Positions 1 through 36,512 of a DNA stretch of 39,221 bases are shown piece by piece (the first letter of the stretch is position 1; the number at the start of each line of letters is the position of its first letter). The position numbers and the translations under genes were made by a program. This stretch comes from Armatimonadota bacterium (GTDB lineage Bacteria; Armatimonadota; Zipacnadia; UBA1398; JAKPQA01): contig JAKPQA010000215.1 of the NCBI GenBank assembly GCA_029547025.1, positions 1 to 39,221 of the forward strand. Direction: 5' to 3'. The notes below the pieces were generated by a model that was given only the letters and a program-made list of their open reading frames with translations, searched no databases and was not told the DNA's origin.

Positions 1-995
1 CATGGAAGGGGCCCGCGAAGCGGGAAGGGCGCCATCCGGCCCGGTTGAATGACGCGCATCGCACTCGGCCCTTGGGCCGGATAGGGTCCCACCAGACTGC
101 GTCTGGTTCCCCCTATTCGGCCCCTCCGAAAACCGTCCGCGGGAACCGAAGAGGGGCCGAATGGAAGGGGCCCGCGAAGCGGGAAGGGCGCCATCCGGCC
201 CGATTGAATGCCGCGCATCGCACTCGGCCCTTGGGCCGGATAGGGTCCCACCAGCCTTCGGCTGGTCCGCCCCTATTCGGCCCCTCCGAAAACCCTCCGA
301 ACCACCGAGGAGGGGCCGAATGGAAGGGGCCCGCGAAGCGGGAAGGGCGCCATCCGGCCCGGTGGAGGGTCGCGCGTCGCACCCGGCCCTTGGGCCGGAT
401 AGGGTCCCACCAGCCTTCGGCTGGTCCGCCCCTATTCGGCCCCTCCGAAGACCCTCCGAGCAACCGAGGAGGGGCCGAATGGAAGGGGCCCGCGCATCGG
501 GAAGGGCGCCATCCGGCCCGGTGGACGGTCGCGCGTCGCACTCGGCCCTTGGGCCGGATAGGGTCCCACCAGCCTGCGGCTGGTCCACCCCTATTCGGCC
601 CCTCCGAACACCCTCCGAACAACCGAGGAGGGGCCGAATGGAAGGGGCCCGCGCAGCGGGAAGGGCGCCATCCGGCCCGGTGGAGGGTCGCGTGCCGCAC
701 GGCCCCTGGGCCGGATAGGGTCCCACCAGCCTGCGGCTGGTCCGCCCCTATTCGGCCCCTCCGAAGACCGTACAAACAACCGGGGAGGGGCCGCACAGGG
801 GTGCGCCAAGAGGGCGCGGGGCCCCTGACCGGCCCGAGGTTGAGGCGTGCAGATCGGGCGCGTTGGGGGCCCACCACGCTGAGAGAACGCGTGGTTCCCC
901 CCATGGCGCCCCTCCGAAAGGCATTGGAACCACCGAGGAGGGGCCGAATGGAAGGGGCCCGCGCAGCGGGAAGGGCGCCATCCGGTCCGGTCTCC
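1..995. repeat. Tandem array of ~159-bp palindromic repeat units
   Basis: The anchor ATGGAAGGGGCCCGCG recurs at 2, 161, 320, 479 and 638, exactly 159 bp apart. It is degenerate near 797 and returns at 948 (310 bp after 638). About six units are present; the window opens mid-unit, so the array probably continues left. Each unit contains a long hairpin with outer stem GGGCCG-G-ATAGGG / CCCTAT-T-CGGCCC and a 7-bp inner stem such as ACCAGCC/GGCTGGT around a 3-nt loop. It also has a second inverted repeat, ATTCGGCCCCTCC / GGAGGGGCCGAAT. Hairpins lie at 74-123, 233-282, 392-441, 551-600, 708-757 and 856-911. Because 159 is 53 codons, both strands stay open by chance and give long false reading frames with low-complexity Pro/Gly/Arg-rich products. 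I see no Shine-Dalgarno site or recognisable protein. Function is unknown; a structured RNA, a REP/BIME-like element or a minisatellite are all possible. Confidence 0.9.
856..911. other. Diverged repeat-unit hairpin with compensatory changes
   Basis: This is the hairpin of the most diverged repeat unit. Its inner arms are ACCACGC (873-879) and GCGTGGT (889-895) around a 9-nt loop, where other units have ACCAGCC/GGCTGGT around 3 nt. The outer arms are GGGCGC (856-861) and GCGCCC (906-911), instead of GGGCCG/CGGCCC, and GGGGG (865-869) pairs with CCCCC (898-902). Both arms changed together so that pairing is kept. The alternative partner upstream (CCGGCCC near 828) did not change to match, so the local hairpin is the structure being preserved. 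Whether it acts as RNA or DNA is not known. Confidence 0.75.
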
Positions 996-1073
996 AGAGA
1001 CCCATACCCCCAACTTCGCCTCAATCCCGATCTACTCATTGGGGTGGACTTCGCGGTTCGCACACTCCCCATC

Positions 1074-1102
1074 GGCCCTGAGCCTGTCGAAGGGAGGAGC
1101 GC
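1074..1102 (+). repeat. Dispersed short repeat, copy 1
   Basis: The core CCCTGAGCCTGTCGAAGGG is followed by AGGAGCGCG. The same core and flank recur at 36353-36382, and a reverse-orientation, diverged copy lies at 31629-31645. The motif is intergenic here, downstream of the minus-strand SGNH hydrolase gene. I recognise this core as a short repeat seen in intergenic regions of many unrelated bacteria, where its chance translations give peptides such as FDRLRA or LSLSKG. Its function is not established. It could be a repeat of REP type or a weak terminator. Confidence 0.7.
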
Positions 1103-1158
1103 GGGGTGGCCAGGGGGCCCAGCGGCACGAAGACCCAACTCGACTGCCTGCCCTGCTG

Positions 1159-2448: not shown

Positions 2449-2858
2449 AGGGAGACCCCCTCTTCGCCGCCCCCCGGGCGGTCGCCGTGCGCGGCCCACC
2501 GTGCCTCCGCGCCCGCCCGACCCGGACATGCCGGGAGCCCCGGGCCGGTAACATGGACCCGGTCAGTTCCGGGAGGAATGCTTGCCCCGGGGGGCAGTTC
2601 GACATTGCCCAAGACGGGACATTCCTACGCCACGTTGGTTTCGAGCTTGTGAGCCACGGTCATTTCGGCCTGGCGGCAGCCCGTGCTCCCCATCAGCCAC
2701 AGAGGGCCCTGGTCCGGGTCGGGCCCCGCCCGACTGGGTAGGCTGCTCCCCTGCGCGGCCTCTCGACACGTCTCCCAACAGCCACGAGCCCGAACGGGAG
2801 GGGCCCGCGAAATGCGAGAGGTGGCTGTGGCTTGTGAGCTCGTGTGAGCGCGCGAAGC
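2449..2858. other. Non-coding stretch between the SGNH gene and the ffh promoter
   Basis: No convincing gene lies here. The region separates two divergently transcribed genes, so it should hold the SGNH gene promoter, which I cannot pinpoint. It contains a compact hairpin (GTCGGG 2718-2723, CCCGAC 2729-2734) and a relic of the 159-bp repeat near 2791. Inverted arms CAGCCAC (2779-2785) and GTGGCTG (2821-2827) enclose that relic. I looked for a 4.5S/SRP RNA, which would be a natural neighbour of ffh, and did not find its conserved GGAAG-loop/AGCAG signature. Confidence 0.6.
2791..2819 (+). repeat. Relic of the 159-bp repeat unit
   Basis: The stretch beginning CGAACGGGAGGGGCCCGCGAA matches the repeat-array consensus CGAATGGAAGGGGCCCGCGAA at 19 of the first 21 positions, then diverges. 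It is a fragment of one unit about 1.8 kb from the array and on the far side of the SGNH gene. It is enclosed by 7-bp inverted arms (2779-2785 and 2821-2827). This suggests that units have been copied or lost around this locus, although chance similarity of GC-rich DNA cannot be fully excluded. Confidence 0.5.
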
Positions 2859-36252: not shown

Positions 36253-36352
36253 CACAGGCCCTCCTTGGTGGTGAGTGCACGGCTGACGTTCGGTGGGTCA
36301 CGGCGGAGGGCCTGCGCGGAGGCACCGCCCGCGCCACCCTTTAGCCCCCGTC

Positions 36353-36382
36353 GGCCCTGAGCCTGTCGAAGGGAGGAGTGCG
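36353..36382 (+). repeat. Dispersed short repeat, copy 2
   Basis: GGCCCTGAGCCTGTCGAAGG then GAGGAGTGCG matches copy 1 (1074-1102) in all but one base of core plus flank. It lies in the gap between the divergent amidohydrolase and FAD-oxidoreductase genes, so it may overlap their promoters. The other copies are downstream of genes, so the context differs. Confidence 0.65.
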
Positions 36383-36512
36383 TGGTGGTCGGCGGCGGGC
36401 GCGTTACGATTGGGCAAGACGGGCGCCGAGGCGGCCTTGGCGAGAAGGTCCCGAGGCCCTTGCCGGACAACTCGTCACGCGGCACCGGCACGTCTCGCCC
36501 TGGAGGTCCGCC

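Follow-up and report, generated by a model that had tools for sequence, protein, structure and literature searches.

The 159-bp tandem array and its hairpins

The window, that is, the whole stretch of 39,221 nucleotides analysed here, is contig C134 (G000:C134) of a 6.3-Mb draft genome of an uncultured Armatimonadota bacterium, assembled in 369 contigs. TRF identified an array with a 159-bp period at positions 2-793 (5.0 copies, 92% matches), and a related run extends past the array called by TRF to approximately position 989. As the array begins at the contig start, its left side is truncated. A preliminary description, made from the sequence alone, had reported a 159-bp tandem array with hairpins changing in step, and this was confirmed by TRF and direct reading. 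The features are listed below, named after the kind of element to which, as discussed later, they very probably belong.

1-989: REPINs in a tandem cluster of BIME type, which the contig start cuts off on the left (TRF, contig start, direct reading)
2-43, plus strand: H2 REP of which the contig edge leaves only the 3' part (H2 profile match)
74-127, minus strand: H1 REP of unit 1 (profile match, H1 alignment, ssDNA fold)
150-201, plus strand: H2 REP of unit 1, with the foot AGAG instead of GGAG (direct reading, profile match)
233-287, minus strand: H1 REP of unit 2, inner stem ACCAGCC/GGCTGGT, loop GAA (profile match, ssDNA fold)
309-360, plus strand: H2 REP of unit 2, GGAG followed by GGGCCGAATGG...CCATCCGGCCC, inner stem CCCGC/GCGGG, loop GAA (profile match, pattern)
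392-446, minus strand: H1 REP of unit 3 (profile match, ssDNA fold)
468-519, plus strand: H2 REP of unit 3 (profile match, pattern)
551-605, minus strand: H1 REP of unit 4 (profile match, ssDNA fold)
627-678, plus strand: H2 REP of unit 4 (profile match, pattern)
708-762, minus strand: H1 REP of unit 5 (profile match, ssDNA fold)
784-835, plus strand: subfamily-B REP b1, GGAG followed by GGGCCGCACAGGGG...CCCCTGACCGGCCC (ssDNA fold, genome matches of the B unit)
856-915, minus strand: subfamily-B REP b2, 'unit 6' of the preliminary description (ssDNA fold, genome matches of the B unit)
937-988, plus strand: H2 REP, head-to-head partner of b2 (profile match)
2712-2823, plus strand: weak, decayed REPIN-like match, E 4e-6 (sequence-only model)

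Two unlike REP hairpins, H1 and H2 (52-55 nt each), make up every 159-bp unit as an inverted, head-to-head pair, together with a spacer of 28-32 nt; the period is the sum of a REPIN of about 129 bp and a spacer of about 30 bp. Read on the strand that carries GGAG, H1 consists of this foot and GGGCCGAATAGGGG, the inner stem ACCAGCC/GGCTGGT with a three-base loop, and then GGGACCCTATCCGGCCC. On the opposite strand, H2 consists of GGAG and GGGCCGAATGG, the inner stem CCCGC/GCGGG, and then CCATCCGGCCC. The GGAG feet of the two hairpins point toward each other and are about 21 nt apart in the array. H1 of unit 1 has the GGAG foot, the outer stem GGGCCG.ATAGGG/CCCTAT.CGGCCC, the inner stem ACCAGAC/GTCTGGT and the loop GCA. 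In b2, GGAG is followed by the outer stem GGGCGC/GCGCCC, the inner stem ACCACGC/GCGTGGT and a 9-nt loop. The pairings given in the preliminary description (ACCAGAC/GTCTGGT in unit 1, ACCAGCC/GGCTGGT in units 2-5, ACCACGC/GCGTGGT in unit 6) are all present, as are the outer arms GGGCGC/GCGCCC of unit 6 against GGGCCG/CGGCCC elsewhere.

The stability of the array hairpins was examined by ssDNA folding of the strand starting with GGAG. H1 of units 1-5 gave -17.3 to -20.7 kcal/mol (z -4.4 to -5.0), and none of 200 shuffled sequences was as stable. The same was true of b2 (-22.7 kcal/mol, z -4.5, 0/200), and b1 gave -21.3 kcal/mol (z -4.2). H2 alone folded no better than its shuffles (z -1.3).

Concerning the surroundings of the array, the DNA directly to its right (window 986-1105, CCAACTTCGCCTCAATCCCGATCTACTCATTGGGGTGGACTTCGC) is repeated beside REP arrays at loci L005, L017, L021, L065, L066 and L079. 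A 43-bp sequence containing CCCTGAGCCTGTCGAAGGG is found twice in the window, at 1067-1109 and 36346-36388, with 93% identity.

Genomic copies and covariation of the hairpin arms

A sequence-only profile built from 19 copies found 115 matches in the genome at E<=0.001, some counts being inflated by tandem copies and relatedness. The copies occur as the 129-bp pair, as a lone H1 or H2, and in arrays. In all 22 close head-to-head pairs H1 is joined to H2; the gap is 20-25 nt except in one pair, where it measures 31. Neighbouring hairpins in tail-to-tail orientation lie 28-32 nt apart. According to a rough codon-model gene caller, 54 of 67 copies are located outside called genes, although approximately 72% of the same DNA was called coding. 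The copies are found between genes of any relative orientation.

What the preliminary description had counted as a sixth copy turned out to be a subfamily-B hairpin joined to an ordinary H2. Subfamily B (window 784-915; query unit 795-935) has 56 genome matches and represents a second, more abundant REP subfamily. Its full-length matches are mostly 91-98% identical. The matches are often found at contig ends, and often in tandem at 152-159 bp. Many contigs start inside REP arrays, namely C6, C25, C47, C58, C101, C134, C154, C164, C218, C229, C277, C320, C329 and C332. As REP repeats break the assembly, array lengths and copy numbers are underestimates.

For the covariation test, 32 genomic H1 copies were aligned without reference to structure. 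Across them, 90.9% of the cells pair, and 8 of the 19 H1 pairs display two-sided changes (20 such cells, against 4.4 in shuffles). For four of five measures, none of 500 shuffles reached the observed value, and slid controls were far lower. The two-sided changes in the 32 copies are significant. We also examined 36 distinct inner inserts, 33 of them from relatives, lying between the fixed outer arms; 23 self-pair at p<=0.05. The two-sided changes and the pairing kept in relatives support the view, put forward in the preliminary description, that the hairpin is maintained.

The 32 copies share further features. The foot is GGAG in 27, the others having GGAA, GGAC or TGAG. Twenty-four retain a mid-stem mismatch at stem position 7, where A or C faces C, and so do 30 of 33 relatives. 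C(GNA)G triloops (CGCAG, CGAAG, CGGAG, CGTAG; alignment columns 29-33, GGAG strand) are present in 24 of the 32. Triloops of this kind are unusually stable in ssDNA.

The array by itself is no proof of which fold is maintained, since units 1-5 contain one two-sided change and satisfy a four-armed fold as well as two hairpins. The maintained fold is shown by the genome-wide copies, the single hairpins and the relatives. The preliminary description had argued that the competing partner did not co-vary and that this fold, not another, is kept. This applies to unit 6 but not to units 1-5, as both folds are satisfied in the latter, and the argument comes down to unit 6. The layout of unit 6 is that of the other units, with outer and inner arms both matched. 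Taking into account that it belongs to subfamily B, its differing arms represent a comparison between subfamilies.

RAYT genes in relatives and in this genome

We searched the 46 genomes of the class Candidatus Zipacnadia (phylum Armatimonadota) for the foot and outer-arm pattern. It was found in 17, and the reversed pattern, used as a control, in none. The hairpins of these relatives have the same foot and outer arms with unrelated inner stems. Candidatus Zipacnadia is also the nearest named relative of the window's genome as judged by this repeat. A pattern scan of genome contigs gave one true relative, L033; another match, L034, looks coding and was discarded as a chance hit. A REPIN built of the same kind of unlike pair occurs in a different family of this class, at L159 (G007:C9:53547-53702), where the inner hairpins are not the same.

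Among the PF01797 genes of the window's genome, one (L032; C246:5815-6273) encodes a RAYT (REP-associated tyrosine transposase) broken by an in-frame TAG, and an H1-type hairpin lies directly upstream of it (L032:1290-1352). Homologs of this protein are present in 32 of the 46 class genomes. Those at L036-L045 and L048 adjoin, or sit between, hairpins with the GGAG foot (GGAG-GGGCCG). The relatives' homologs exceed the cut-off of NCBIfam NF047646 (REP-associated tyrosine transposase), and the sole PDB match of the L036 protein is E. coli TnpArep (4ER8, E 1.8e-12). The tested RAYT loci contain 12 strict-pattern hairpins against 0.086 expected; the hits are clustered, so that a formal p-value overstates their independence, and five separate loci contribute. 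A RAYT gene flanked by REPs that are also dispersed in the genome was found in the relatives at L036, L038, L040, L042 and L048. In addition, GGAG is located 5' of different palindromes flanking the related RAYTs at L051, L052 and L053, which identifies the foot as a consistent variant. The linkage to RAYT genes supports the suggestion of the preliminary description that a copying mechanism may depend on the hairpin.

As for an intact cognate RAYT in the window's own genome, none was found; the sole clade homolog found is the one with the in-frame stop. Two other RAYT genes were considered and rejected as partners, as each sits among its own, different repeats. One, in L031 (G000:C157, 1020-1980), is intact (182 aa, NF047646 133 bits) and surrounded by another palindromic repeat (GAGGCTGAAGCCTC / GAGGCTTCAGCCTC) in many copies. 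The other, in L155 (G000:C80, 900-2070), is a RAYT-like gene (184 aa) inside tandem arrays of the palindrome GGCGGCCGTCCTCGGCCGCC with the foot GTGG. With this third gene, the RAYTs of the genome number three or more, and each has a repeat family of its own. As the cognate RAYT is broken and the other two are tied to different repeats, the REPs described here may no longer move in this genome. It may be that the family is dormant, that it depends on a RAYT copy missing from the assembly, or that a host role preserves it.

Identity of the element and competing explanations

The preliminary description knew of no named family matching this unit. This is incorrect, as the array is of the REP/REPIN/BIME kind, in which both preserved palindromes and compensatory changes have been reported (PMC2817692, PMC3116915). 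REPINs are inverted REP doublets that form tandem clusters including their flanks, with compensatory changes being common (PMC3116915), and selection in favour of complementary mutations in REPs has been inferred by Nunvar et al. (PMC2817692). Compensatory change in REPs is already published and not new here. The spread of such hairpin pairs in bacterial genomes is attributed to a single-strand transposase, the RAYT. As in the REPINs and BIMEs of Pseudomonas fluorescens SBW25 and E. coli (PMC3116915, PMC3686654), we find inverted pairs of REP hairpins with a short spacer (22 pairs, and also in the relative G007 at L159), many dispersed intergenic copies as singlets and doublets, an associated RAYT gene, and tandem clusters in which flanking sequence is repeated too. 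The hairpins are imperfect palindromes (z -4.2 to -5.0 for H1, b1 and b2) with many copies (115 matches), located mostly between genes as judged with the rough gene caller (54/67). On the other hand, the foot is GGAG and not GT[AG]G, the tetranucleotide that defines canonical REPs (PMC3686654, PMC6006769). The members of a pair differ in type (H1, H2), somewhat as in the Y-Z BIMEs of E. coli, the REPs are long, at 52-55 nt, and have an inner stem nested within the outer one, and the host belongs to the Armatimonadota. Taken together, we are confident that the array is a REPIN/BIME cluster, a known kind of element accompanied by a RAYT, in a GGAG-foot variant.

The genes adjacent to the relatives' hairpins match NF047646, the family of TnpA_REP (4ER8, E. 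coli; TnpA_Y1 class 2, PMC6006769). Most relatives' RAYTs keep the HUH motif and the equivalents of Q95 and R104. The guide-contact stretch is WQRSYWDRHAR, whereas that of E. coli TnpA_REP is WQPRFWEHAIR, and the copy in the window's genome differs further by its in-frame stop. We considered a specificity code in which R at the position of E. coli H101 goes with GGAG, and rejected it, as L127 has R with a GTAG foot and L155 and L156 carry R with GTGG. The subterminal hairpins of IS200/IS605 and their TnpA presumably offer a parallel in single-strand hairpin recognition and a guide tetranucleotide at the foot. Nevertheless, the NF033573 (IS200) scores of the RAYTs fall far short of the cut-off, the hairpins here are scattered in the absence of the gene, and the array shows no IS structure.

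These comparisons suggest how the array may have arisen. Replication or repair would expose one strand, on which each hairpin with a GGAG foot would fold and be bound by the RAYT, an HUH/Y1 nuclease. The enzyme would recognize both the foot and the mismatched hairpin stem, cleave close by at a dinucleotide that the foot specifies, and move or copy the REPIN to intergenic sites. If only copies that still fold are recognized, changes in one arm would survive when matched on the other, and recognition by the RAYT would be the force keeping the arms matched. The 159-bp tandem repetition, spacer included, is probably a secondary amplification by recombination or replication slippage. In E. coli, cleavage by TnpA_REP requires a mid-stem mismatch bulge, and in Marinomonas the foot guides the cleavage site, CT being chosen by A3G4 and CA by T2G4 (PMC8266576).

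Pairing without selection for structure could also result from template-switching during replication of quasi-palindromes, with one arm serving as the template for the other. The two arms lie near each other and are for the most part perfect, and the inner stems turn over freely yet stay paired, an outcome expected of quasi-palindrome correction. Such correction should, however, erase the mid-stem mismatch (A or C facing C) retained in 24/32 H1 copies and 30/33 relatives, and it leaves aside that different families of the class share the conserved foot and outer arms and that hairpins cluster at RAYT genes. Retention of the mismatch agrees with an imperfect hairpin being what is recognized, and argues that simple correction of palindromes is not the only cause; we consider template-switching unlikely. 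The least probable explanation, in our judgement, is a structured RNA (cis-regulator, sRNA or terminator) selected as RNA. REPs elsewhere affect mRNA ends, either strand of the hairpins folds stably, and most copies are intergenic; yet the copies lie between genes of any relative orientation, H1 or H2 also occurs singly, the inner sequence is unrelated between families, and the linked genes encode ssDNA nucleases. An Rfam covariance-model search of the window, which the preliminary description had proposed as a check, gave no match above the gathering score. The array is neither an unnamed minisatellite nor an unnamed RNA.

A further candidate is a single MITE-like element with terminal inverted repeats, folding into a four-way junction in which GGGCCGGAT pairs with ATCCGGCCC 120 nt away and the middle arms pair together. 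In most full-pair copies 11/11 and 14/14 of these pairs are satisfied, and full units, where dispersed, have a discrete length of 129 bp. The two-hairpin fold is favoured by the single hairpins, by unit 6 and by the RAYT flanks: H1 and H2 are each found alone, single GGAG hairpins flank RAYT genes, and the outer arms of b2 (GGGCGC/GCGCCC) match each other and not the neighbouring H2. Reading of the flanks revealed no evident target-site duplication. A single four-armed element is therefore very unlikely, while both folds may form, as proposed for REPINs (PMC3116915). As to maintenance by the host, which would have co-opted the array, as a BIME, to bind gyrase or IHF, to end transcription or to protect mRNA, such functions are described for enterobacterial BIMEs (PMC2817692, introduction), and persistence beside a broken RAYT suggests that some copies stay without active movement. 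The covariation and the class-wide RAYT linkage require no such role, which we regard as rather improbable here; it is compatible with, and not exclusive of, the REPIN/RAYT explanation.

In the literature, we found no relevant paper joining RAYTs with GGAG or REPs with Armatimonadota; matches for RAYT and Armatimonad were, as judged by title, community surveys or metagenome catalogues without relation to the subject. It is plausible, and just as open to doubt, that a REP/RAYT clade extends throughout Zipacnadia, with the guide shifted from GT[AG]G to GGAG, a changed guide-contact stretch in the transposase, a near-fixed outer stem and inner hairpins that can be replaced freely. If the guide has shifted in this manner, the published guide rule (PMC8266576) predicts that CT cleavage is kept and that CA is exchanged for CC. 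A possible claim of a new RNA gives way to a testable case of REP/RAYT co-evolution. Across families of this poorly known class, foot and outer stem hardly vary, whereas inner stems are swapped, usually with their pairing restored, which amounts to a natural experiment on what the transposase reads in a REP.
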